This document shows positions 1 to 33,393 of a stretch of DNA of 49,994 nt, piece by piece. A program made the position numbers and the translations under genes. Origin of the DNA: Pseudomonadota bacterium (GTDB taxonomy: Bacteria; Desulfobacterota; Desulfarculia; Adiutricales; JAGVGV01); NCBI GenBank assembly GCA_018830135.1, contig JAHJTB010000089.1, positions 1-49,994 of the forward strand. The letters run 5' to 3'. Each line of letters opens with the position of its first letter. Within the stretch, counting starts at the first letter, position 1. Under the pieces are notes generated by a model. It did no database searches. It was not told the DNA's origin and saw nothing but the letters and a program-made list of their open reading frames with translations.

Positions 1-1548
1 GGAAAAGCCGGGGGAAAATATCAGGTCGAAGGTCTCCCGATCGGACAGTTGGGCCTCCGCGCCGATCAGTTTTCGCTCGACGGCCCGGGCCCGGATGCGC
101 TCGAGGTCCAGGCCGGCCCCGTCGTCCTGGATCTGGATGAGGACGTTGGCCCCGGAGTGGACGGCCGAAATTCGCAAGGTGCCTTGCGGGGGCTTGCCCG
201 ATGCCCGCCGGACCTCCGGGAGTTCGATTCCGTGGTCGATGCTGTTGCGGATAAGGTGGACCAGGGGGTCGTTGAGCCGCTCGATGACCGTCTTGTCCAG
301 TTCGGTCTCCTCCCCCTCGGTGACCATTTCCAGGTCCTTGCCCAGTTCGTTGGACAGATCGCGCACCAGCCGCCTGAACTTGCTGAACAGGGTCCCGATG
401 GGCACCATGCGGGTGCTCATGGCATTGTCCCGCAGTTCCGCTGTCAGCCGTTCGACCTCCTCGGCAATGAGCAGCAGGGAGGGATCGTCCCGGCCGGCGG
501 CGGTCTGGCTCAGGCGGGCCTGAACCGTGACCATCTCCCCGACCAGGTCAACGAGCTTGTCCAGGCGGTCCGAAGGGACCCGGATGCTGGTGACGTCCGC
601 CTTCCGCTGCCTCTGTTCCCGGACCTCCCGGACGTGCTGCTGTTCGAGCAGGGCGGACTGGACCCGATCCGGGGTGACGACTCCGGCCTCGACCAGCATC
701 TCTCCGATATGCCGCTGGGACACCAGCGTCTTTTCCAGGTCCGCCGCGGTCAGGTCCCCCCGCTCGATCAGTATCTCTCCCAGCCGCTTGTAACTCGCCT
801 CCTCCTCGAAACGTCCCTGCTCGTCAATGACGTCGATGTTCAGATCGCAGTCGTCCTCGACGAAAATGAAGACGTCCTTGATGGCGTCGATCCCCCGGGC
901 CGTGGTCAAGATCACGTCCCAGTAGGTGTAGCAGGCCTCGGGGTCGAAGACGTCCAGGCCGGGAATGTGGTCGGTCTGGGCCACGACCCGGGACTGTCCC
1001 AGTTCCTTTAGTTCGTTGAGCAGGAGAACCGGGTTGGTGCCCCGGCTGAAAATATCGGTATGGGGCCGGAACCGGATCCGGTAGGTCACCTCGTTGCCCC
1101 GCACGGCTTCAGGCGGGGCCGGCTTCCCCTCGTCGGCCGGGTCTTCTTCCGGCTGCCGCGCCCCCCGGTTCTTGTCCCTGAAAGCCGCTTCCAGGGCACG
1201 GGTCCGGGCTTGGTCCGGCGGTTCGCCTCCGTCCGCGGCATCGACCATGACCTTGATCTGATCCCGGGCGGCCAGGGTCAGGTCGATCAGGTCCCTGCCC
1301 GTTTCAAGCCGGCCGGATCGAACCATGTCCCAGGCGGTCTCCACCTCATGGGTGAAAGCGGCGATGTCGTCGAAGCCGAACATGGCCCCGGAACCCTTGA
1401 TGGTGTGCATGGCCCGGAAAATCCGGCCGATCAGTTCCTCGTCATCCGGACGTTCCTCCCATTCCAGCAGGGAGGTTTCCAGTTCGGCCAGGAGTTCGTG
1501 GGCCTCTTCCTTGAACGCCAGGCGGTGGATATCCATCTCGTTGGTCAT
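1..1548 (-). CDS. cheA: Chemotaxis histidine kinase CheA (C-terminus cut by window edge)
   Basis: CheA autophosphorylates on its N-terminal Hpt histidine and passes phosphate to CheY. I translated this frame by hand because the ORF track omits it (no stop before the edge). The Hpt domain opens the protein with the phosphoacceptor in AMHTIKGSGAMFGF. A middle region (IFSRGTNPVLLLNELKELG) resembles the one between Hpt and kinase in deltaproteobacterial CheA proteins. The dimerisation segment follows, then the N-box HLIRNSIDHGIE, the G1 box DDGAGL and the G2 box FSPGFS. The CheW-like end lies off the window. The ATG overlaps the cheY stop as ATGA, so the two are probably translationally coupled. 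The soluble partner protein upstream suggests this system need not control flagella; that is inference. Confidence 0.95.
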   Translation of the reverse strand, partial: MTNEMDIHRLAFKEEAHELLAELETSLLEWEERPDDEELIGRIFRAMHTIKGSGAMFGFDDIAAFTHEVETAWDMVRSGRLETGRDLIDLTLAARDQIKVMVDAADGGEPPDQARTRALEAAFRDKNRGARQPEEDPADEGKPAPPEAVRGNEVTYRIRFRPHTDIFSRGTNPVLLLNELKELGQSRVVAQTDHIPGLDVFDPEACYTYWDVILTTARGIDAIKDVFIFVEDDCDLNIDVIDEQGRFEEEASYKRLGEILIERGDLTAADLEKTLVSQRHIGEMLVEAGVVTPDRVQSALLEQQHVREVREQRQRKADVTSIRVPSDRLDKLVDLVGEMVTVQARLSQTAAGRDDPSLLLIAEEVERLTAELRDNAMSTRMVPIGTLFSKFRRLVRDLSNELGKDLEMVTEGEETELDKTVIERLNDPLVHLIRNSIDHGIELPEVRRASGKPPQGTLRISAVHSGANVLIQIQDDGAGLDLERIRARAVERKLIGAEAQLSDRETFDLIFSPGFS

Positions 1549-1910
1549 CCCAGCACCTTTTTGATCACGGCGACAAGCTGTTCCGGCTTGAACGGCTTGA
1601 CGATCCAGCCCGTGGCCCCGGCGGATTTGCCTTCCTGTTTTTTGGTATCCTGGGACTCCGTGGTCAGCATGACGATGGGGATGAACTTGAAGCCGGCATT
1701 GGCCCTGAGTTGGCGAATCAACTCGATCCCGTCCATATTGGGCATGTTCAGGTCGGTAAGGACCATGTGGATCGGCCCCCCGTTGATCTTGGCCAGGGCG
1801 TCCCGGCCGTCGACCGCCTCGATTACGTTGTACCCGGCCTGTTTCAAGGTGAAACTGACCATCTGGCGAACGCTGTTCGAATCATCGACGGTCATTATGG
1901 TCTTGCTCAT
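1545..1910 (-). CDS. cheY: CheY-type single-domain response regulator
   Basis: A stand-alone receiver of about 121 residues, the likely phosphate acceptor of the adjacent CheA. It has the acidic pair in MTVDDSNSVR, the phospho-Asp in MVLTDLNMPNMDG, a Thr in VMLTTES and the Lys in IVKPFKP, so it looks fully functional. The ORF track starts seven codons earlier. I chose MSKTIMTVDD because its ATG overlaps the STAS-gene stop as ATGA, the same coupling used at its other end with cheA. Confidence 0.95.
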   Translation of the reverse strand: MSKTIMTVDDSNSVRQMVSFTLKQAGYNVIEAVDGRDALAKINGGPIHMVLTDLNMPNMDGIELIRQLRANAGFKFIPIVMLTTESQDTKKQEGKSAGATGWIVKPFKPEQLVAVIKKVLG

Positions 1911-2269
1911 GACGTCGTCCTCCTGGCCCACAGACAGCTATGGTCGCGGTCGAGATGGCACCCGGTATGCCTCGAAAATCCGGCCGCCTCGATCGCGCGG
2001 ACCAGAAACTCGGGATGGGGCCTTGTAAGGCTGAAGCACTTGTCCCCCGCCAGAGCCGTCCGGTGGGCCGAACAAAACAGTTGCAGGCCGGGCAAGGTGA
2101 TTTCGGTCACCGACTCCAGGTCGACCACGACCCGGTCGGCCTTGGACAGCGCGTCCGCCAGAGCGGCTCTCAACTCGGCGGCCCGCTCGATGTTCAGTTC
2201 TCCGGCCATGATGATTTGACCGGTCCGACTTTTTTCATCCCATTTAAATTCCACTCCGGCCTCCTCCAT
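1907..2269 (-). CDS. STAS-domain protein in chemotaxis operon
   Basis: A 120-residue single STAS domain (anti-sigma-factor-antagonist fold), with strands around GQIIMAGELNIERA and VVVDLESV followed by an amphipathic helix. STAS proteins usually carry a regulatory Ser in an IDSSGL-like motif; here the matching stretch is ITLPGLQLF, without Asp or Ser. It is therefore unlikely to be switched by the classical Ser phosphorylation and may act as a binding or scaffold protein. It lies between the CheZ/MCP-like gene (56 nt gap) and cheY (ATGA overlap), so it belongs to the operon. Its exact role is unknown. Confidence 0.8.
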   Translation of the reverse strand: MEEAGVEFKWDEKSRTGQIIMAGELNIERAAELRAALADALSKADRVVVDLESVTEITLPGLQLFCSAHRTALAGDKCFSLTRPHPEFLVRAIEAAGFSRHTGCHLDRDHSCLWARRTTS

Positions 2270-2325: not shown

Positions 2326-4266
2326 TTAAAACAGTTCCACGTTGTCTCCCAGGTCCTCATCGCCCGATTCCTCGGCTTCCTCCTCCGGCTTGGGCGCCGG
2401 TTCGCTGAACAGCTCAACCCCGTCGCCCAAATCCGTTTCCTCCTCCGTCGTGGCGGCCGGGTCCCCGAAAAGCTCGATCCCGTCGCCTAAATCCGCTTCC
2501 CCGGCCGACGTCTCCGGGGCAGGGGCATCGAACAGCTCGAAGCCGTCGTCAAGTATGTCGTCCCCTTGAGGCGTTGGGTCCGCCGGGCCCCCGCCGGCCG
2601 CCTTTCGGTCCTGACTGGTCAGGACGGCCTGATGGACCGCCCTTTCACTTTCCATGGTGTACCGGCTGGCCAGGGCCTCGAGGCCTTCTCCGGAGCCGGG
2701 TTCACCGGAGGACGGGTCCGCCGGGGTCTGCTCCAGAATCTCGCCCAGGCCGACCAGGGCCTCGCCGATCCGGGTTTCCACGCGGCGGTGCACGGTCACG
2801 CCGCCCAAGAGGTCCCGGATGTCCTCGGTCAGGGCCCGGCTCTTGCCCTCCACCTCGTTCATCATAACCAGCGAACGGCTGTTGGCCTGTCGGACGGCAT
2901 CGAGGACCTCGGTCAGTTCACCGACCGCCGCTTCGACTTCGGCCGTCCTGGATCGTTCCTTTCGCAACTGGCTCCTGGCTTCTTCGATGTCCCGGTGGAC
3001 GGCGGCCAGGGTGTCGGTGTACTGCCTGGCCTCGCCGGCGACATCCCGTATGGCCTCGGCCAGGATGTCCAGGGTCATCCCCTGCCGGCCGATCTTGGCG
3101 GCCCGGATCGTGGCGTTCAAGGCGATGAACTTGATCGAGTAGCCGCTGCCCTGAACGCCGGCTAAAAACTCGTTCATCACCTCGATAGTTTCGGCGACTG
3201 AAGCGACGGCGGTTTCGATTTCACGCCCGGCCGAGTCGTGCCGCCGCAAAGCGGCCGCCGCCTCGAGCATGTCACGCTCCAGCCGGTCCAGAAAGGACTC
3301 CCCCGCCCCCTCCTTTTGATTGACGAACTCCCTGGTCTCCCGACATCCCTGGTCCAGGCTCTCGGCCACCCGGTCCAGGTTTTTGAATATATTTCTCACG
3401 GCCGCGTTGAAATCGTCCCCGGCCTGACGAAGCAGGGCCGTCTGAAGCTCGCAGGCGCCCCGGAAGCCTTGGTTGTTTTCGTCTTCGACCAGGTCGGTCA
3501 AGGCGTCCTTGACGTGCTCCAGACGCTGGCGGGTGATGTCGTGGAACTGCATGGACATGACCACTTCGCCCACGCTTCGGCTGATCTGTTCCGAGCGTTC
3601 GCTTACACACCGGATCGCCTCGGATGAAGCGCTCTGTTTGGCCAACAGGTCGGACAGACTGGAAGCAACCAGGTCCAGGACCGCGCGGCCCTGACCGCTC
3701 TGTTTTTCATGGAAGTCTCGCAGCTTGGATAAAAGAGACTGGACCTGCCGGTCCAGGCTGTCCAGACTGTCCAGCACGTCGGACGCGCTTTGTCCGATCT
3801 GGGCGGACTGTCTGGCCACCTCGTCGGAAAGGAATCTGAAGCTCTGGCCGCCGCCTCTGAGGTGGGCGCTTTCGATCCGGGTCAGCGTGCCCAGGATATT
3901 CAGGGTCCGGGCCACCAGGCCGAAACGGCCGAATACGCGCCGGGAACGCTCCAGGCAACTCCGGACGCTTTCCAGCGCGGCCAGATCGCCTTGCAGGACC
4001 TCTTCCGAGGCCTTCATATAGCCGGTCATCCGGCCGGCCAGTTCCCGCAGGTCTTCCACCGTCCGGCCCATGGATTCGCCGGACAGCAGGCCGGCCAGGG
4101 ACTTCCCGGTCTCCGTCATGTCCGCGGAACGGCGGTAGACATCCTGGAGGCTCTCGCCCAGGGCCAGAAAATCATCCTCGGTGGAGACGGTCAATGTCCC
4201 GATCTCTTCCGCGATCCGCTTGAGCCGGTCTTCCCGGCTGGCCATCGGTCGGTCAAGCAAACTCAT
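2326..4266 (-). CDS. Soluble CheZ/MCP-like chemotaxis protein with repeated C-terminal acidic peptides
   Basis: A 646-residue protein with no membrane segment or ligand-binding domain, largely helical coiled coil. Near residues 235-255 it has QFHDITRQRLEHV, which matches the DxxxQ active-site pattern of the CheY-P phosphatase CheZ (DLTGQ in E. coli). Around residues 375-415 it has IKFIALNATIRAAKIG followed by LAEAIRDVAGEA, which resembles the CheA/CheW-binding hairpin tip of methyl-accepting chemotaxis proteins. The last 90 or so residues are acidic and carry four copies of an LGDGxELF-like peptide, the last at the extreme C-terminus. As first gene of the operon it may sense or scaffold and also remove phosphate from CheY. 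The dual role is inference; many databases would call it simply an MCP. Confidence 0.75.
   Translation of the reverse strand: MSLLDRPMASREDRLKRIAEEIGTLTVSTEDDFLALGESLQDVYRRSADMTETGKSLAGLLSGESMGRTVEDLRELAGRMTGYMKASEEVLQGDLAALESVRSCLERSRRVFGRFGLVARTLNILGTLTRIESAHLRGGGQSFRFLSDEVARQSAQIGQSASDVLDSLDSLDRQVQSLLSKLRDFHEKQSGQGRAVLDLVASSLSDLLAKQSASSEAIRCVSERSEQISRSVGEVVMSMQFHDITRQRLEHVKDALTDLVEDENNQGFRGACELQTALLRQAGDDFNAAVRNIFKNLDRVAESLDQGCRETREFVNQKEGAGESFLDRLERDMLEAAAALRRHDSAGREIETAVASVAETIEVMNEFLAGVQGSGYSIKFIALNATIRAAKIGRQGMTLDILAEAIRDVAGEARQYTDTLAAVHRDIEEARSQLRKERSRTAEVEAAVGELTEVLDAVRQANSRSLVMMNEVEGKSRALTEDIRDLLGGVTVHRRVETRIGEALVGLGEILEQTPADPSSGEPGSGEGLEALASRYTMESERAVHQAVLTSQDRKAAGGGPADPTPQGDDILDDGFELFDAPAPETSAGEADLGDGIELFGDPAATTEEETDLGDGVELFSEPAPKPEEEAEESGDEDLGDNVELF
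2329..2562 (-). repeat. Four degenerate peptide repeats in the C-terminal tail
   Basis: The DNA encodes DILDDGFELF, DLGDGIELF, DLGDGVELF and DLGDNVELF, separated by acidic, proline-containing linkers of 10-20 residues. The last repeat is followed directly by the stop codon. The pattern (acidic, then hydrophobic, ending in Phe) recalls the CheY-binding C-terminal peptide of CheZ; that comparison is inference. Confidence 0.85.
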
Positions 4267-4851: not shown

Positions 4852-7800
4852 TCAGCCGCTGTTTATCATGGGCTTGATCTTTTGAAGGGGCATGACGACC
4901 TTGAACCCGAGTCCTCCGGAGCGGACCATCTCGATACGGCCGGCCAGCCGCCCCTGGACCAGGGCCTCGACCAGGTCCAGTTCCAGACCGCTCCTCCTGC
5001 CCGAGGCCGGCTGATCGGACAACCCGGCGCCATCACCGGTCACGGTCAGTTCCAGGCTGTTTCCGTGGACACGGGCCTCGACCCGGATCCGGCCCGGGCC
5101 TCCTTGTGGAAAGGCATGCTGGATGGAATGGGTGATCAGTTCGTTGACAACCAGACCGCAGGGCACGGCCTGGTCGATAATCACGCGCGGTTCGCCGCTG
5201 ATCTCGACTTGAAAGGCAATGCCCCGCCGGCCGGTCTGGTACAAACCGGACAGGGCGGCGACGAGTTTTTGCAGATAGGTTCCCAGGTCGATGGCAACCA
5301 TGGTTTCGGCGTCATAGAGCGACTCGTGAACCAGGGACATGGCGGCGATACGGCTTTGGGCCTCCTGAATGAAATCGAGGTCCCCCTTGCTGCGGGCTCG
5401 GGCCGCCTGGAGATTGAGCAGGCTGCTGATGACCTGCATGTTGTTTTTGACCCGGTGATGGACTTCCCGGAGAAGCACTTCCTTTTCCTTCAGCGCCGTC
5501 TCCAGCTTTTCCCGGGTCTGTCGGCGCTCGGTGACGTCGCTGATGAAATACAGGGCCGCCGGATTGCCTTCCCATTCGATGGGCACGCCGTTGACCTGGA
5601 CCCAGATCATGTGGCCTTTTTTATGGACGATCCGGGTTTCATAGTTCTGGGGCACGTCTTCTCCGGACAGCCTTTTCCGATACCGTTCCAGGATCAGTTC
5701 CCGGTCGTCCGGGTGGACGAACTCGATGAAGGGCCGCGCAAGGTCTTCATCCGCGGTGTAACCGGACAGCCGGCTGCCGCTGGGATTGATGTATTTGACC
5801 GCACCGTCCTGCAGGACGCAGATGATTTCATAGGCGTTTTCCACCAGGACCCGAAATTTCTCATCCGAGGCCCTCAAGGCCTCCCGTGCCCGTTCCCGCC
5901 CGGTAATATCCTCTCCTGAACTCAGGGTGCCGGTAACCCGGCCCGCGTCGTCCCGCAACAGCGCGTTGCGCCATCGGATAAGCCGTTCCCGGCCGTCTTT
6001 TCCGCGAATACGGCTTTCCACGAACCCCAGTTCTTGCACTTCTGCTTCCAGTAAACCCTTGAATTCCGATCCGGCCTTTTCTCGAACGTCCTCGGGCAGG
6101 CAGGTGTCGAACCAGTTGCGGCCGATCAGTTCCCGCCCTTCGTAGCCCAGGACCTGGTTACCCTTCCGGTTGATGAGCGTGACCCGGCCCTCCCGGTCCA
6201 GGGCCAGCAGGATGACTTCCACCACATCCAGGCATTTCCGGGCCAGACGGTTTTCATCGCCCGATCCTGTTTCGACCAGGGCTGCCTCCACTTCGGAGCA
6301 GACGCCGAAAGTACCCTGGAAGGCGCCGTTGGCGTCAAACAGCGGAATCCCGGACAAATGGACCTGGAGGCGGGTCCCGTCTTTCCTGATGAATACGATT
6401 TCATAGCTTCCCGACCTGCCCTCCCGCCGCTTGCGGAATTCCCGGCGCTGCATGTCCTGATAGCTCTTGTCCACGATTTTCAGTCCCGGATGGCCGATCA
6501 GTTCTTCCCGGGTGTAGCCCAACATCCGGCAAAGGTGCTCGTTGACCTGTTGAAACCGGCCTTGGGCATCGATATGGATCACTCCGTCATTGATGGTTTC
6601 GACCAGTCGGCGCAACCGGGCCTCGCTCTCCTTGAGCGCCTCATCCGTCAGCCTGCGGGCGGTAATTTCCCGGGTGCTGAATACGGCGCCCTGCTCCCGG
6701 CCCGCTTCGTCGAACAGAATCCGGCCCAGGGTCTCGAACCAGAGATACCGGCCGTCCTTGTGGCGCATGCGGTACTGGGCCTCGACGGGCTGGGGTTCCA
6801 GGGAAACTTGCCTTTCCTCGATGATGCGCGCCAGTTCCAACAGGTCATCCGGATGGACCAGGGCCACGATGGGCCGGCCGATCAGTTCACCTTCGTCGTA
6901 TCCGAGGATGGTCTGGTAGGATGGACTGACAAAGATAAAATTGGCCTCCTGGTCGCACATGGCGATCATGTCGGCGGTGTATTGGGTCACGAGCTCGTAT
7001 AGCGCCTCCTTTTCCCGGAGCGCGTCCTGGGCCTTCCTCCGATCGGTCACGTCCCGGGCGATGCCTCGAAAGCCGATGGGCTGGCCGGCCGAATCCCGGA
7101 CCAGGGAGGCGGACAACTCGTGATAGACCAGGGAACCATCCGGCAATACGGCATCGACCTGGACCTTCTTGGCCGGCTGGCCCGTGGTGTAAATCCGGTT
7201 GAAGGCGTTGAAAATCGTTTCCGATGATTCCGGAGTCATGTATTGGCGATAGTTGGCCCCGATGATTTCTTCTTTCGGGCGTTTGGCCAACTCATGAAAC
7301 CAGGGACTGATGAAGGTGTAGCTGCCTTTCAGATCGACTTCGAAATAGCCTTCATCGATACTGTCTGTAAGCGTCCGGTACTTGCGTTCGCTCTCGCGCA
7401 AGGCATCCTCGGTCCGTCTACGTTCCGTGACGTCCAGGGCCACGCCTCGGAAACCCACCGGCCGGTCGTCCCGGTCACGGATCAGGGAGATCGAAACCTG
7501 AAGGATTGTTTTGCGGCCATCCTTGGTCCTGCTGTCATACTCCAGGGCCTGAATCGGCTTCCCGGTGCGAAAGACCCGATTGTATTCGAGGTATACGGCA
7601 TCGGCCGTTTCGGCCGGGACATAATCCCGGTAATTCATGTTGAGGAGTTCCTCGTGGGGATAGCCGACGATCTCGCTGAAGGCCTGATTGAAAAAGAGCA
7701 GGTTCCCGGCCAGGTCGATCTCGAAATATCCCTCCTGCATACTCTCCAGGATGGTCCGGTATTTTTCCTCCTTTTCCTTCAACTCCGCTTCCGCCTGCAG

Positions 7801-8592
7801 GCGGCTGGTCACGTCCCGCAACACGGCCATGGTGGCCGGACGCCCCTGGTATTCAATCAGGTTCGACCGGCCCTCCATGATCATTCGCCGGCCGTCCCGG
7901 TTGATGAGGGGCACCTCGAACTGTTTCATGCCCGTATCGCCCCGCATGCGAGACTGGTGCATCTCGATCATCAACTCCCGGGCCTCCGGGGCCACCACCT
8001 CGGTGAAATGCCGATCCGCGGTGTCCGCGGTGGAATAACCAAGCATTTTTTCATAGGTCGGATTGCGGTACACGGTCTTACCGTCCTGGATGACCACGAT
8101 GGCGTCGTTCATGGATTCGGCCAGGGTCCGATACATGCCCTCGCTCTCCTTGAGGGCCTCCTCCATTTTTCGTCTTTCCGCGTCCACCTCGGCCACGTAC
8201 AAGGCCATCTCGATCGTGACCTTGAGGTCCCGGTCCTGGAAGGGCTTGAGCACGTAGCCGAAGGGCAGGGCCAGTCTGGCCTGCTTCAGCCTTTCCTCCT
8301 CGGCGTACGCGGTCACGAAAACAACCGGGACGTTCCAGCGGGATCGAAAAACTACCGCGGCGTTGATCCCGTCCATCTCACCGGCCAGAACGATGTCCAT
8401 CAGCACCAGATCGGGCGGGTCCTGTTCCGCCAGGTCCAGCGCCTCCTCGGCCGAAGCCGCGGTGGCCCGGACCGAATACCCGAACTCCCTGAGCCTGGCC
8501 TCCAGGTCCGAAGCAATGATAATCTCGTCTTCAACAATCAGGATTCGAGGTGATTTCAAAGCGGGTGCCCCCTTCTCGCTGACCCTCCGCAT
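4852..8592 (-). CDS. Hybrid sensor histidine kinase: REC, seven PAS, HisKA_2, HATPase
   Basis: A 1246-residue cytoplasmic kinase with no membrane segments. Residues about 15-130 form a receiver (IVEDEII, phospho-Asp in LVLMDIVLAG, Lys in VLKPFQ). Seven PAS domains follow, each introduced by a short helix such as LKESEGMYRTL, LKEKEEKYRTI or LRASDEKFRVL. Next is a HisKA_2-type phosphoacceptor, EVHHRVKNNMQVISSLLNLQ, and an ATPase domain. The N-box reads NELITHSIQHAFP, where NELxxNAxKHAF is usual, and the G1 region reads TGDGAGL instead of DNGxGL, so nucleotide binding may be altered. The receiver-first arrangement suggests input from another kinase. It has no adjacent partner; the chemotaxis operon downstream is a separate unit after a 585-nt gap. 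Ligands of the PAS domains cannot be told. Confidence 0.9.
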   Translation of the reverse strand: MRRVSEKGAPALKSPRILIVEDEIIIASDLEARLREFGYSVRATAASAEEALDLAEQDPPDLVLMDIVLAGEMDGINAAVVFRSRWNVPVVFVTAYAEEERLKQARLALPFGYVLKPFQDRDLKVTIEMALYVAEVDAERRKMEEALKESEGMYRTLAESMNDAIVVIQDGKTVYRNPTYEKMLGYSTADTADRHFTEVVAPEARELMIEMHQSRMRGDTGMKQFEVPLINRDGRRMIMEGRSNLIEYQGRPATMAVLRDVTSRLQAEAELKEKEEKYRTILESMQEGYFEIDLAGNLLFFNQAFSEIVGYPHEELLNMNYRDYVPAETADAVYLEYNRVFRTGKPIQALEYDSRTKDGRKTILQVSISLIRDRDDRPVGFRGVALDVTERRRTEDALRESERKYRTLTDSIDEGYFEVDLKGSYTFISPWFHELAKRPKEEIIGANYRQYMTPESSETIFNAFNRIYTTGQPAKKVQVDAVLPDGSLVYHELSASLVRDSAGQPIGFRGIARDVTDRRKAQDALREKEALYELVTQYTADMIAMCDQEANFIFVSPSYQTILGYDEGELIGRPIVALVHPDDLLELARIIEERQVSLEPQPVEAQYRMRHKDGRYLWFETLGRILFDEAGREQGAVFSTREITARRLTDEALKESEARLRRLVETINDGVIHIDAQGRFQQVNEHLCRMLGYTREELIGHPGLKIVDKSYQDMQRREFRKRREGRSGSYEIVFIRKDGTRLQVHLSGIPLFDANGAFQGTFGVCSEVEAALVETGSGDENRLARKCLDVVEVILLALDREGRVTLINRKGNQVLGYEGRELIGRNWFDTCLPEDVREKAGSEFKGLLEAEVQELGFVESRIRGKDGRERLIRWRNALLRDDAGRVTGTLSSGEDITGRERAREALRASDEKFRVLVENAYEIICVLQDGAVKYINPSGSRLSGYTADEDLARPFIEFVHPDDRELILERYRKRLSGEDVPQNYETRIVHKKGHMIWVQVNGVPIEWEGNPAALYFISDVTERRQTREKLETALKEKEVLLREVHHRVKNNMQVISSLLNLQAARARSKGDLDFIQEAQSRIAAMSLVHESLYDAETMVAIDLGTYLQKLVAALSGLYQTGRRGIAFQVEISGEPRVIIDQAVPCGLVVNELITHSIQHAFPQGGPGRIRVEARVHGNSLELTVTGDGAGLSDQPASGRRSGLELDLVEALVQGRLAGRIEMVRSGGLGFKVVMPLQKIKPMINSG

Positions 8593-20276: not shown

Positions 20277-21500
20277 TCAGTTCCGGGCGCCGGCCTTCAT
20301 CGTCTCCAGAAAGGCAGTCAGCGTTTCGTACGTCTGTTTCGACGAGTAGTTCCGCTCGTCGGTCATGTCCCCTTGCAGGTTGACTGCGGGCAGGCCCCGG
20401 TCCCGCATGGCCTCCCGAACCAGGCTGAAGGCGGCGTTTTCCTGGTGGCAGGCCGGCGTGTGAAAATGGATGACGCCATCCACCTCGTACCATTCGGCCA
20501 GGCCCGCCAGTCGCTCGACCCGCCCCCGGGCCGGTCCGACCAGGAAGTTTTCCAGGGCTTTCACGGCCAGGGCCTCGAACGGGTGATCCTCGTCCAGTTC
20601 GGACCACCACACCGTGGCCACTTCGACCACCGGGATGCTGACCTGATGTTCCTTGAGCGTGTCGAAGATGTTGGTCCTCTGGACAGGCACCCAGGGATAC
20701 CACAGGACCCGTTTGCTTTCCGGGAGCACGGCGCCCTTGTCCACCCGACCCTTCAGCTCCCGGGCCAGCATGCCGTAGATTTCCTCGAGCACGGGCGCCC
20801 CCCACAACAGCCCGCCGGCCAGGCTCAGCAGACAGGCCCGGACGCCGTCCCAGGGACAGGGCCGGTTTTTCATCAGATCATTGACGGTCTGCATGGAGGC
20901 CCGGGCCCGGTTGGAGCTTCGGACGGACTCCTTGAACCGGTCCATATCCAGGCGGGTCCCGGTGATTTTTTCGAGTCGGGAAGCGATCTGTTTGAGCTGC
21001 GCGGTCACGTACCGGACCGCGTCCCGGCTTTTCTCGTGGGGCACGTCGAACAGCACGCTGTCCAGGCCCTGATTCCGGGCCACGATCTCGTTGGCCTTGG
21101 CCTTGCCCTGACAATAATAGCTCGAGGTCAAAAAAAGATCGCCGGCGGGCAGCATGCCCTGCATCATGCAACTGATGATGAGCCGATCGAAGGAACAGAC
21201 GTCCCGGGAAAACCCTTCGTTTTCCGAGACGGTCATCAGGGTCGACCCGTGGCCGCCCACGGCGGCGGACAGGTTGTTGCAGGCGATTTCAAAGTCGAAG
21301 GGCACCACGTCAAAGGCCCACAGCAGCTCGGTCGTGAAAGCATATCCCGAGACATAGACCGTTGCGGCCGTTTCGTCAAAGGCCCGGACCATGTTGGCCA
21401 TCAACGACTTGTTGAAAAGGTCGAACCCTCGCGGCCGGTCCGCGTACCGCTGTTCGAGAAAGGACAAGGCCTGTTCGAATTCCTGCTTCATGGCGCTCAT
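20277..21500 (-). CDS. 2-Hydroxyacyl-CoA dehydratase-family subunit (HgdB/BcrC-like)
   Basis: A member of the family that includes 2-hydroxyacyl-CoA dehydratase and benzoyl-CoA reductase subunits, which bind a [4Fe-4S] cluster and perform radical dehydration or ring reduction. Visible features are YAFTTELLWAFDVVPFDFE, DVCSFDR, SYYCQGKAKANE and FHTPACHQENA. The first Cys expected in the opening motif is not present (YVSGYAFTTELL). I chose the Met at 21500 over the track start because GGGAGGAAA lies upstream. It follows its partner subunit on the same strand. No HgdC-type activator ATPase is in the window, so the reaction is undetermined. Confidence 0.8.
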   Translation of the reverse strand: MSAMKQEFEQALSFLEQRYADRPRGFDLFNKSLMANMVRAFDETAATVYVSGYAFTTELLWAFDVVPFDFEIACNNLSAAVGGHGSTLMTVSENEGFSRDVCSFDRLIISCMMQGMLPAGDLFLTSSYYCQGKAKANEIVARNQGLDSVLFDVPHEKSRDAVRYVTAQLKQIASRLEKITGTRLDMDRFKESVRSSNRARASMQTVNDLMKNRPCPWDGVRACLLSLAGGLLWGAPVLEEIYGMLARELKGRVDKGAVLPESKRVLWYPWVPVQRTNIFDTLKEHQVSIPVVEVATVWWSELDEDHPFEALAVKALENFLVGPARGRVERLAGLAEWYEVDGVIHFHTPACHQENAAFSLVREAMRDRGLPAVNLQGDMTDERNYSSKQTYETLTAFLETMKAGARN

Positions 21501-21544
21501 GACGCTTTCCTCCCGGTATGCGTCCCCATGGGGACGGCCCATAT

Positions 21545-22612
21545 TTATAAAACGCTGCCGATCATTTCCACGAAGGCTTCCACCCGAATCCGGAGCCGTT
21601 CCACGTCGCTCCAGACATAGTCGTTTTCCAGGACCAGGAGCGGCGTGCCCGTTTCCTTGAAGCGCTTTTCCGCCTGGGGCGCTTCGAACAGGCTGTAGTC
21701 GCAGTATTTCAGCCCGGAAAAAACGACCCCGTCCACCCCGTACTCCCGGGCCAGGCTTTCCATCCGGTCCAGGCGGTCGCCGACACCGGGCATGCGGGCG
21801 CAGGACGGTTTGAGCAGGTAGCGGCGGGCCAGGGCCGTGATCGGCGGCAGGCCTTCTTCCACCTGGCCGGCGTAATGTCTCAAGCCGTTGCAGCCGTCGA
21901 ACAGGACCACGGCCCCGCCGGCCCTTTCGATCATGTCGAACAGGGCCGGGCGGTGGATGAGGTTGCCCGTGACCATGATGCGGGGCCGTCCGTCGGGCGC
22001 CGATTTCTCGTCGTCGATTCGTTCGGCCCGCGTCCCCGGCCAGGAGGGGTTCTCCGATTTGGGCTGGGAGGACTCGCGGGCCAGCAACCCGAGCAGTTCG
22101 GAGCCTTTCAGCCCGACCGGGTCCGCCTTCCGTCCTTGAAACAGTTCCTCGACCCAGCGGCGGCGTTCGTTCATCACGGCAATGGCGCGTCCGAGCTTTT
22201 CCTCGCTGATATCGGCGCCGAAATCCGCTTCGAGGCGGTTCTTCAAATCCAGAATCCGGGCCGCAAAGTAGTCGATCGCCTCGTCGCTGGTGTTTTTCGG
22301 GACCTCCAGCATGTAGGTCCAGGGGGTTTCGACGTGGCGCAGCCAGAGATCGTACATTCGCCGGATACCGTCGCAGGTGTTGGCGAACACGATTCCGGCC
22401 AGGTCGTCGAAACGGTGCTGGAGACCGCTGTCAATCAGGTTCTTCAGATAGGGACACAGGTTGGTGAAGGCGATGGCGTCCGCCTCCTTGACCCTGTCCA
22501 CGCGGCCTTCCAGCCGCACCGGGTTCAGACCGGCGGCCAGGATCAGTTCCTCGGGGACAAAGGAACAGAACCAGCCGATTTTCGGGGACTCCGGATCGGG
22601 GAGATCATGCAT
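21545..22612 (-). CDS. 2-Hydroxyacyl-CoA dehydratase-family subunit (second)
   Basis: A 355-residue protein of the same family, with the classic opening GWFCSFVPEELILAAGLNPVRL, then NLCPYLKNLI, FANTCDGIRRMYDLW, DGCNGLRHYAG and a final FSGLKYCDYSLFE. Cysteines sit at the positions expected for cluster ligands. AAGGAGG precedes the ATG. It is the upstream member of a two-gene unit; such pairs usually form a heterodimer needing an external electron-donating activator. The substrate is unknown: a 2-hydroxyacyl-CoA dehydratase or an aromatic-ring reductase-like role are both possible. Confidence 0.85.
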   Translation of the reverse strand: MHDLPDPESPKIGWFCSFVPEELILAAGLNPVRLEGRVDRVKEADAIAFTNLCPYLKNLIDSGLQHRFDDLAGIVFANTCDGIRRMYDLWLRHVETPWTYMLEVPKNTSDEAIDYFAARILDLKNRLEADFGADISEEKLGRAIAVMNERRRWVEELFQGRKADPVGLKGSELLGLLARESSQPKSENPSWPGTRAERIDDEKSAPDGRPRIMVTGNLIHRPALFDMIERAGGAVVLFDGCNGLRHYAGQVEEGLPPITALARRYLLKPSCARMPGVGDRLDRMESLAREYGVDGVVFSGLKYCDYSLFEAPQAEKRFKETGTPLLVLENDYVWSDVERLRIRVEAFVEMIGSVL

Positions 22613-30614: not shown

Positions 30615-30675
30615 ATCAGTTGGCGGGCTACCCCCTCGGCAGGCCTCGGGGGATGCGCCCGCACTGCATGTTCAA
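30556..30675. repeat. Palindromic intergenic repeat, copy B
   Basis: It has the same design as copy A: TTGAA and TTCAA ends, a first hairpin (CCCCGGC AG GCCGGGG), the shared core (ACATGTAAGGAAGA, CCATATCAGTTGGCGGGCTA) and a second hairpin of CCCC/GGGG type. Here the element spans the junction of two genes. The radical SAM stop codon (30672-30674) lies in its right end, and the apparent start codon of the next gene lies in its middle. Confidence 0.75.
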
Positions 30676-31832
30676 GACCAGACTCCCGGAATGGCGGCCC
30701 GGCAGCGGGGGCAGCGGCCCGCGTCCATATGATTTTCCACGGCCCACATGCCGGTGCGCTGAATGAGCAGACGGCCGCACCGGGGGCAGAAGGTGTCGCC
30801 GCCGGGATGGCCGGGCACGTTGCCCAGGTAGACGTAGCGCAGTCCTTCGGCCTTGGCCGCCTCGCAGCAGCGTTCCAGGTCGGCCACCGGGGTCGGCGGG
30901 ACGTTCTGGAGTTTGTACATGGGCCGGAAGCGGGTGAAATGAATGGGCACGTCCGGCCCCAGATGGGTCTTGATCCAGCGGGCCATGGCCGTGACATCCG
31001 CCTCCCGGTCGTTGGCAGCGGGTATGACCAGGTTGACGATTTCGACCCAGACGCCGAGGCCGACCAGGTTTTCCAGGGTCTCGAGGACGGGCTTGAGCCG
31101 GCCGTGGCAGTAGTCGCGGTAGAAATCGTCGGTAAAGGCCTTGAGATCGACCTTGTAGGCCTTGAGGAAGGGAACCAGTTTCCGTTGCGCTTCCAGGGAT
31201 GTGAAGCCGTTGGAGACCACGGTGCACCTCAACCCGGCCTCATGGCCCAGCCGGGCGGTTTCGTGCATGAACTCGTAAAAGACCGTGGGCTCGTTGTAGG
31301 TGAAGGCCAGGTTGGGGATGTCGTTTTTCAGGGCCAGGGCGACCAGGGTTTGGGGCTCGATATAGCGGGCTTCGACCTTTTCGGGCCGGAACTGGGACAA
31401 CTGCCAGTTCTGACAGAATTTGCAGCTCAGGTTGCAGCCGGCCGTGGACAGGGACAGAACCATGCTGCCGGGGACCACGTGGTAGAAGGGCTTTTTTTCG
31501 ATGGGGTCGTTGTTCAGGGCCGTCACCCGGCCGTAAACCAGGGTCATGTATTCGCCCTGGCGGTTCATGCGAACCCCGCAGGCGCCCCGGCCGCCGGGCG
31601 CGACCTCGCACTGGCGGGGGCAGAGGCGGCAGCGGACGATTCCGCCTTCGAGCCGGTCGTAAAACATGGCCGGACGGACGAAGCGTTCGTCTTCAATGGA
31701 AAGCCCGGCCCCCGGCGGGGCGGCGCCGTCCGGAGCCTGGTCCTGGGCCCGGGCCGTGCCCAAAGGGCATACCCCCAGTCCGGCCGCGGCAACGGCCAGG
31801 CAGGTGGAACGCAGAAAAGTCCGTCGGTTCAT
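30672..31832 (-). CDS. amrS: AmmeMemoRadiSam-system radical SAM protein, Tat-exported
   Basis: A radical SAM protein of the AmrS family, with the cluster motif CNLSCKFCQNW near residue 110. An upstream Cys set CRLCPRQCEVAPGGRGACGVR and a C-terminal zinc ribbon (CPRCGRLL and CPRCRAAIPG) are typical. Its reaction is unknown. I start it at MNRRTFLRSTCLAVAAAGLG, 14 codons inside the ORF, because this gives a textbook twin-arginine signal and begins 7 nt after the upstream stop. A Tat signal on a radical SAM protein is unusual, since the enzyme needs low-potential electrons; the polyferredoxin two genes upstream could supply them. Confidence 0.9.
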   Translation of the reverse strand: MNRRTFLRSTCLAVAAAGLGVCPLGTARAQDQAPDGAAPPGAGLSIEDERFVRPAMFYDRLEGGIVRCRLCPRQCEVAPGGRGACGVRMNRQGEYMTLVYGRVTALNNDPIEKKPFYHVVPGSMVLSLSTAGCNLSCKFCQNWQLSQFRPEKVEARYIEPQTLVALALKNDIPNLAFTYNEPTVFYEFMHETARLGHEAGLRCTVVSNGFTSLEAQRKLVPFLKAYKVDLKAFTDDFYRDYCHGRLKPVLETLENLVGLGVWVEIVNLVIPAANDREADVTAMARWIKTHLGPDVPIHFTRFRPMYKLQNVPPTPVADLERCCEAAKAEGLRYVYLGNVPGHPGGDTFCPRCGRLLIQRTGMWAVENHMDAGRCPRCRAAIPGVWS

Positions 31833-31839
31833 GTCGGCC

Positions 31840-33393
31840 CTACTTCCCGGCCCCGGCCTTTTCATCCTCGCCAAAAACCTGGGCGCTGAACCGGTAGAGG
31901 TCCACGTTCGCCTGCCGCCAGGTCCCGGCGGGCAGGCCGGCCTTGACGCAGGTCTGGTCGAGGAACTTTTCCCGATCCCAGCCGTTCTCGACGGCCACCT
32001 GGGGCAGCAGCAGCCCCTGACGCTCCCCCTGGGCGATCATGAGTCCGTCCCGACCGACCTGGATGTCCTCGACCCGGTCGACCAGTTCGAACGGGGTCAG
32101 TACCGAAATTTCCAGGCTGACGCCTTCCCGGTATTCGGAGCGGGTCAGAGGGGAAAAGCGCGGGTCTCGAAAGGCGGCCGATACGGCCATGTAGGGTACG
32201 ACCTCGGACACGGGATGGTTGGCGGCCAGGTGGCCGATACACCCTCTCAGGCCGTCCTTCATCTTGATGGTCACAAAGGCCCCGCCCAGGGAATTCAGGG
32301 CCGGGGAGAGCCCCTTGGGGAAGGTGAAATCCCTGCCGTCAAAGGCGCAGTCCAGGGCGCGCCGGGCCAGGCCCAACAACTGGGCTTTCTCCGCCGGACC
32401 GAGTCGAGGCGGGGCCGGGTCCGCCTTGTTCCCTTTCGATTTCGGGTCGGCTCCGTTCCCTTCGACCAAGGCCGCGGCGACGTAGCCGACGACATGGTCG
32501 TTGTCGCCGGTGACCGTACCGGAATGGTCGTATTTCAGAATCTCGGCCCGGTTGGCTCCCAGGGACCGGGCGGCCTCCATGACCGCGATGAGGGGGCCTT
32601 CGCCGCAGGCCTCGGACCGTCCGTTGAGCATGTCGAGATGGAGTCCCCGGCCGTCAAGGCCCCGGACCCGTTCGATGACCCGGGCGTCCAGAAGCCTGGC
32701 CTCCGGGGCCGGGTGTTCATGGGACAGATCGGTGCTGGCCAGCAGCAGCGCATTTCGGCCCCGCATGGCTTCAGCCAGGGCCCGGCCCAGGGCGACCGAG
32801 GAGCCGTAGCGCCGGTTGCCCACCAGCAGAGGCACGATCCTGGCCTGGGGCAGCACGGTCTGGATGAAGGGAAGCTGTATCTCCAGGCAGTGTTCGCTCT
32901 GGTGGATTTCGGGCCGGCCGGTCACGAGCGGGCCGGCGGCCTTCTGGATGCGGTCGGCCAGGTCGCGGTCCAGGGACACCCGTCCCAGGGGAGTTTCATA
33001 GTCCTGGTAGTTGAGGGAGGCGCCTGGGAAGGCGGCCCGGTGGCTGGGACCGATCAGGACCACGGTTTCGAAGGTCCGGTTTTTCAACAGGTTGTAGGCA
33101 AAGGCGGCCACGGGCCCGGAATAGCGGTGTCCGGCATGGGGGACGACCAGGGCCTTCAGCCTTCCTTGGACCTTGGGAACGGCGGCCCGGTCGAGAAAGG
33201 CCCGGACCTGGCTTTTCAGTTCGCCGGCCTGGGCCGGGTACCACTGTCCGGCCAGGGCCGAAGGTCTGAGTCCGACTTCGGTGGCCCGGGCCGAAGCGAG
33301 CGGCAGGGCCAGGAAAAGAATCAGGATGGCGATCTGGAGCCGGACCGGGCGGCCCGGTCCGGGAGAGCTCGGGATGCGGCGGTTCCGGGACAC
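31840..33393 (-). CDS. amrB: MEMO-AMMECR1 fusion protein (AmrB-AmrA type), exported
   Basis: 517 residues joining two Amr-system proteins. After a Sec signal peptide (RLQIAILILFLALPLASA) comes a MEMO domain (about 45-290; AGQWYPA, VPHAGHRYSGP, LIGPSHRAAFPG, STDLSHEHP), a dioxygenase-like fold with conserved His residues. Then an AMMECR1 domain (about 320-500; FVTIKMKDGLRGCIGHLAANHPV, RFSPLTRSEY, LLLPQVAVENGWDREKFL). Both domains look intact and their biochemical role is not established. The GTG start uses AAGGAG located at the very end of the polyferredoxin gene, so translation is coupled. Confidence 0.92.
   Translation of the reverse strand: MSRNRRIPSSPGPGRPVRLQIAILILFLALPLASARATEVGLRPSALAGQWYPAQAGELKSQVRAFLDRAAVPKVQGRLKALVVPHAGHRYSGPVAAFAYNLLKNRTFETVVLIGPSHRAAFPGASLNYQDYETPLGRVSLDRDLADRIQKAAGPLVTGRPEIHQSEHCLEIQLPFIQTVLPQARIVPLLVGNRRYGSSVALGRALAEAMRGRNALLLASTDLSHEHPAPEARLLDARVIERVRGLDGRGLHLDMLNGRSEACGEGPLIAVMEAARSLGANRAEILKYDHSGTVTGDNDHVVGYVAAALVEGNGADPKSKGNKADPAPPRLGPAEKAQLLGLARRALDCAFDGRDFTFPKGLSPALNSLGGAFVTIKMKDGLRGCIGHLAANHPVSEVVPYMAVSAAFRDPRFSPLTRSEYREGVSLEISVLTPFELVDRVEDIQVGRDGLMIAQGERQGLLLPQVAVENGWDREKFLDQTCVKAGLPAGTWRQANVDLYRFSAQVFGEDEKAGAGK

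Follow-up and report, generated by a model that had tools for sequence, protein, structure and literature searches.

Gene X, carried on the 49,994-nucleotide stretch of DNA analyzed here (the window), encodes a tandem, single-chain protein of the MCP type, with two MCP hairpins per chain. It is probably a soluble, receptor-derived CheY-P phosphatase that works in an F7-like system in association with the chemosensory array; among the roles considered, this is the best supported, on the basis of motif conservation, and we hold it with moderate confidence. How the CheY-P signal is ended is often unclear where a chemosensory cluster has no CheZ. With a phosphatase built from a receptor, the end of the signal would be tied to the array, and a simple direct enzyme test becomes possible.

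The 646-residue product consists of two MCP-like hairpins followed by a disordered tail (Table 1). Its maximal 19-residue hydropathy mean is 1.1, which marks it as soluble. The earlier note had pointed to a CheZ-like DITRQ motif and a receptor-like tip, FIALNATIRAAKIG, in one soluble protein, and both are present in this ORF. They share the chain but lie in different hairpins, and the hairpin with DxxxQ has a less obvious tip of its own. When profiles of residues 8-265 and 264-560 were compared, the two hairpins matched with a probability of 98.0% (E 2.6e-13). The match is colinear through 228 columns, superposing the two tips and placing DITRQ against VTVHRRVETR. Tip 1 reads IESAHLRGGGQSF in the window protein and IESARLGELGAGF in orthologs, close to the canonical IEAARAGEHGRGF. 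Because the hairpin profiles match colinearly and the ortholog tip 1 is near canonical, X is a tandem of receptor-type hairpins. In further profile comparisons, hairpin 1 matched short 2-TM MCPs at 99.7%, and hairpin 2 matched short MCPs at 99.9% and canonical MCPs at 98.5%. Pfam MCPsignal passes its cut-off on X (37.8 bits against 34.6, residues 380-485), and its score is under the cut-off in some orthologs (L007, L049).

Table 1. Features of gene X and its neighbors in the window (residue numbers refer to the X protein)
Feature	Residues	Window positions	Strand	Remarks
Gene X		2326..4266	(-)	ORF, ATG start, 646 aa (2329..4266 without stop)
Hairpin 1, CheZ-like	11-261	3484..4236	(-)	AlphaFold helices 11-62, 64-134, 141-261
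N-arm motif TEDDFLALGESL	29-40	4147..4182	(-)	E30 and F33 invariant, G37 97%
Tip 1, decayed MCP tip LNILGTLTRIESAHLRGGGQSFRFL	122-146	3829..3903	(-)	Aligns with MCP tips
DITRQ, CheZ-like DxxxQ	243-247	3526..3540	(-)	D and Q invariant 41/41; aligns with CheZ FQDLTGQ
Hairpin 2, MCPsignal-like	268-513	2728..3465	(-)	Pfam MCPsignal at residues 380-485
Tip 2 FIALNATIRAAKIG	380-393	3088..3129	(-)	A382 and G393 100%, N384 97% (41 members)
Decayed DxxxQ of hairpin 2, VTVHRRVETR	490-499	2770..2799	(-)	Aligned with MQFHDITRQR of hairpin 1
Conserved YTMxSERxxH	536-545	2632..2661	(-)	M538 and E541 invariant, Y536 97%
Tail peptide copy 1, DDGFELF	573-579	2530..2550	(-)	Repeat of conserved C-terminus
Tail peptide copy 2, DLGDGIELF	592-600	2467..2493	(-)	Repeat of conserved C-terminus
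Tail peptide copy 3, DLGDGVELF	612-620	2407..2433	(-)	Repeat of conserved C-terminus
C-terminal tail DLGDNVELF, putative CheY tether	638-646	2329..2355	(-)	G640, N642 and F646 invariant
STAS-domain protein		1907..2269	(-)	STAS_2 E 1.5e-13
CheY-like single-domain response regulator		1545..1931	(-)	Response_reg E 5.9e-28; probable start 1910
CheA, cut by contig end		1..1548	(-)	Hpt, H-kinase_dim, HATPase

The AlphaFold model of X is all-helical up to residue 556, and residues 563-646 have pLDDT <50. Prediction of the protein alone, proposed in the earlier note as a check, gave a clear hairpin 1 (helices 11-134 and 141-261) but no turn at tip 2, where a single helix, 325-435, runs through. Single-sequence and profile searches of the PDB and a Foldseek search returned MCP structures amid coiled-coil noise, with CheZ not among the matches.

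The DxxxQ motif lies within QFHDITRQRLEHV (residues 240-252, window positions 3511-3549). D243 and Q247 are unchanged in all 41 aligned X members, at a mean column identity of 31%, while the positions beside them vary (S, M or V in place of F241; V, S, N or I in place of T245). E. coli CheZ carries its own DxxxQ, D143/Q147, in the same FQDLTGQ context. Against a CheZ profile, hairpin 1 scored 79.6% and the short DxxxQ receptors described below 81.0%, compared with 0.4% for hairpin 2 and 0.2% for canonical MCPs. With the eight motif columns masked, hairpin 1 fell to 5.8% in an unchanged register, and its raw score of 27.4 was higher than that of any of 40 shuffles that preserved the heptads (maximum 23.2). 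The CheZ match is specific to DxxxQ hairpins, mostly due to the motif, and no more than suggestive of common descent. The CheZ likeness noted earlier thus stands as a lead, carried by D/Q invariance and the profile match, and is tempered by the masked result and by Pfam CheZ (PF04344), which covers residues 159-258 below its cut-off (19.7 bits against a gathering score of 30.7, E 8.6e-4). The NCBIfam CheZ model weakly touches residues 202-260 (E 0.0034).

E. coli CheZ (PF04344) and X have in common DxxxQ in an FxDxTxQ context, a helical hairpin, a nearby cheY, and a disordered linker with a C-terminal peptide after the bundle; the architecture of CheZ and its AxxFQ-DxxxQ neighborhood are described in PMC7750401, and the function of its glutamine is cited in PMC5231405. 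X differs in its hairpin arms of about 120 residues, longer than those of CheZ, its MCP-type tip, its second hairpin, its different C-terminal peptide and its score under the Pfam cut-off. The invariant N-arm segment TE..FL.IG is predicted to lie opposite DxxxQ, being 108 residues before the turn, compared with 106 after it for D243.

Full-length or near-full-length X genes were found in 41 of the 395 genomes of the phylum that were searched, the window genome included, and members of the 41-row alignment are 23-33% identical to the window protein. Its invariant columns are E30, F33, Q240, D243, Q247, H251, Q275 and A289, and further A382, G393, L479, M538, E541, G640, N642 and F646. Fourteen relatives from public genomes belong to Geotalea, Syntrophorhabdus, other delta-proteobacterial MAGs and one Omnitrophota MAG (L014), which may be misbinned and would otherwise carry X beyond the phylum of the window. 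The order X-STAS-CheY-CheA is kept at almost every locus, and in most other members the CheY beside X is 62-80% identical to that of the window. At some Syntrophorhabdus loci, by our reading of the sequence, STAS and cheA are not beside X, a CheX-like ORF lies upstream, and CheR and CheB lie downstream. By eye, such a CheX-like ORF sits between a CheY-like ORF and X at two Syntrophorhabdus-type loci (L013, 7235-7708; L016, 796-1269), and clusters of this type may hold two putative CheY phosphatases.

A group of short 2-TM receptors (L055-L064; 410-461 aa) has hydrophobic N-terminal segments, a fully canonical tip and, in all ten, an LQFQDITRQ-type motif that follows the tip at a distance of 105 or 107 residues. 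YTM or YVM (YTMxxER) occurs in most of them, and their tails read IELF, VELF, IVLF or VTFF. They share with X the DxxxQ-tip spacing, YTMxxER in most cases, the tail and the che neighborhood; unlike X, they have one hairpin, a membrane anchor and a canonical tip. Among plasmids, a search started from a short DxxxQ receptor gave no match, and ordinary MCPs gave none either, which makes the result hard to interpret. Full-text searches of open-access literature turned up no description of DxxxQ in a receptor. Natural soluble single-chain MCPs have been described in Rhodospirillum centenum and a few other organisms, and an engineered single-chain Tsr~Tsr signals (PMC4692393). These proteins, like X, have two signaling hairpins per chain, and in the passages of PMC4692393 covered here DxxxQ goes unmentioned. 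In X, by comparison, the halves have diverged, one with DxxxQ and the other with a better-kept tip and the tail.

At tip 2, K/R and H/K stand where Tsr has E385 and R388, and tip 1 retains E and has lost N. The receptor tip proposed in the earlier note is sound as homology (MCPsignal over its cut-off, hairpin 2 against canonical MCPs) but altered at these residues. The distance from tip to D is 106 residues in 40 of the 41 X members and 105 in one. All 10/10 canonical MCPs showed the methylation-site consensus, compared with 1/10 of the short DxxxQ receptors and 11/41 X members. None of ten canonical MCPs, taken from the loci examined, has D...Q at the position equivalent to DxxxQ, which is rich in Glu, Ser and Ala there. 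The simplest reading is that the DxxxQ segment replaced the second methylation region, a pattern through which a connection of receptors with CheZ can be tested. Compared with the MCP signaling domain (PF00015) and F7/34H receptors, X has a similar hairpin length, tip homology and a che operon; it differs in being soluble, in having no sensor domain and no canonical CheR pentapeptide, in carrying DxxxQ in place of the methylation region, and in its changed trimer-contact residues at tip 2. From the tips, we infer that X docks to the array.

The decayed tips, the loss of one motif copy and the absent methylation sites would also suit a methylation-free scaffold or decoy receptor, whose CheZ-like surface binds CheY-P or CheA as a sink or localizer without catalysis; the STAS neighbor likewise suggests a larger regulatory assembly. 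We regard this as unlikely, since the two chemically critical residues, D and Q, never change in the 41/41 members while their neighbors vary, and a binding surface alone need not keep these two.

The C-terminal DLGDNVELF is almost invariant in the X family, and its ELF peptide occurs four times in the window protein and two or three times in a few relatives. A tail of the (V/I)xLF type was found in all X members and, as (V/I)xLF or FF, in the short DxxxQ receptors. As a stop-anchored DNA pattern, the tail was detected in 25 of 297 genomes of the phylum, and the reversed pattern in 0; the matches were mostly known X genes, with one short DxxxQ receptor and two others (L070, L071). In the L017 locus, CheY lies in the frame of the X stop, and the VELF codons begin 51 bases before the CheY match. 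We folded this one natural in-frame read-through chain, translating each of the two TGA stops as glycine. AlphaFold gave DNVELF a pLDDT >50, with flanks <50, and a strand at V-E-L, a weak positive indication that the ortholog tail docks on CheY. The two CheZ ORFs of the window genome end in LDQSAIDDLLKSL and DQDAVNQLLGDLGF (pattern DQxA(I/V)(D/N)xLL), and such a CheZ-like CheY-binding end (DQxxVDxLL-like) is absent from X, where the tail is DLGDNVELF.

The tail might instead be a variant of the NWETF CheR tether, by which X would draw the methyltransferase CheR in trans to the array, with a structural role for DxxxQ. NVELF does resemble NWETF, and the operon encodes CheR and an MCP of its own that ends in QFERF. 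The key second position, however, is V/I rather than aromatic, the methylation consensus is absent from most X members, and the V/I-type tail accompanies DxxxQ rather than methylatable receptors. Given this association and the AlphaFold hint of docking on CheY, we judged a CheR tether the less likely function of the tail, and the proposal as a whole improbable.

Because the window begins at contig base 1, the operon is cut inside cheA. The left-hand genes that the earlier note had listed as missing were found on contig C218, which encodes the CheA C-terminus, CheW, a HAMP-MCP ending in QFERF, CheW, CheR, CheB and a hybrid histidine kinase. The CheW-like C-terminal part of CheA at the C218 end is 59% identical to that of an ortholog, and we infer the join of C12 and C218 from the complementary cheA fragments. 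The hybrid kinase (L137, 8788-11094) has the layout REC-GAF-HisKA-HATPase-REC and is the gene that immediately follows cheB in this cluster. The gene order STAS, cheY, cheA, two cheW, receptor, cheR, cheB is that of F7 stage 1 (PMC7184735), and we call the cluster F7-like, a class assigned from gene order with cheD not seen. F7 stage 1 and 2 clusters are without cheZ (PMC7184735), and Geobacter genomes have been reported without cheZ (PMC2577667).

No cheZ, cheX, cheC or cheD occurs in either the window or the C218 part of the operon, so that the absence of cheZ, cheX and cheC first noticed in the window extends to the remainder on C218. Outside the operon, two CheZ ORFs and four matches to CheX are present in the window genome, and the cell is therefore not without phosphatases. 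Among X-bearing genomes, CheX is present in 37/41 and CheZ in 19/41, which leaves no phosphatase vacancy to fill. X and CheZ co-occur above expectation (19/41 against 107/395, Fisher p 0.005, uncorrected for phylogeny), and with CheX in 37/41 we rejected X as a simple CheZ replacement. The second CheZ-like ORF of the window genome (L002, 205-1836 on contig C445) has 543 aa, with some 280 inserted residues separating the two halves of its CheZ match; many genomes of the phylum have comparable split matches.

The earlier note had proposed that a single protein could combine activation of CheA with dephosphorylation of CheY. In favor of such a dual function, tip 2 shows homology to MCP tips and still has N384 and A385. 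Because the Tsr E385/R388 equivalents are replaced and methylation sites are missing, activation of CheA by X is unsupported. Tip 1, with its E kept and N lost, also counts against it, as does the operon's own canonical receptor, which has a CheR-type tether. We give the combined activity only a small chance. The motif FHDxxxQ resembles the HDxxxQ of HisKA_3 kinases, and H242 is 97% conserved in X, but a phosphorelay sink in which H242 is phosphorylated from CheA or CheY is very improbable and was rejected, as the His is Q in the X member L049 and in all ten short relatives, and X has no ATPase domain (no HATPase) and no HisKA_3 match at E up to 1.

A phosphatase role for X is favored by the invariance of D and Q, the CheZ match with its controls, the tandem origin and the kinship with short DxxxQ receptors; by the constant tip-D spacing, the mostly missing methylation consensus and the X-STAS-CheY-CheA order; and by the tail in all X and short members, the docking hint and an operon without a phosphatase gene. 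Against it stand the sub-cut-off Pfam CheZ score, the motif-driven signal, the tail unlike the CheZ end, the AlphaFold helix 325-435 without a turn at tip 2, and the lack of a phosphatase vacancy.

In the mechanism we propose, the two MCP-like hairpins, with about 17 heptads per arm and joined in one chain, would probably form an internal pseudo-dimer, following the four-helix-bundle plan common to MCP dimers and CheZ dimers. The DxxxQ site would lie at the bundle base of hairpin 1, some 106 residues away from the tip, at the place that the second methylation region occupies in ordinary receptors. There, D243 and Q247 may reach into the active site of CheY and position the attacking water in the manner of CheZ D143/Q147. 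The long flexible tail, with one to four terminal (V/I)ELF peptides, would capture CheY, and the tips may place X in or beside the CheA/CheW/receptor array, thereby keeping the phosphatase near the kinase.

More tentatively, a CheZ-type active site may have arisen from the methylation region of some chemoreceptor hairpins, which would thereby have become receptor-embedded CheY-P phosphatases; we consider this possible, though on balance doubtful. If it is true, membrane-anchored and soluble tandem forms would dephosphorylate CheY inside the array, and CheZ and MCP bundles, with their common hairpin plan, would be related by evolution.

Other genes were noticed in the window, all on the (-) strand. 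Adjoining the che cluster, a 1246-aa protein (4852-8592) has, by sequence reading, a receiver domain, many PAS-like repeats and a histidine-kinase-like C-terminus. By eye, two adjacent ORFs (20277-22612) are like subunits of the 2-hydroxyacyl-CoA dehydratase or benzoyl-CoA reductase type, and a radical-SAM-like protein beside a MEMO1-AMMECR1 fusion-like protein (30672-33393) resembles the AmmeMemoRadiSam trio.
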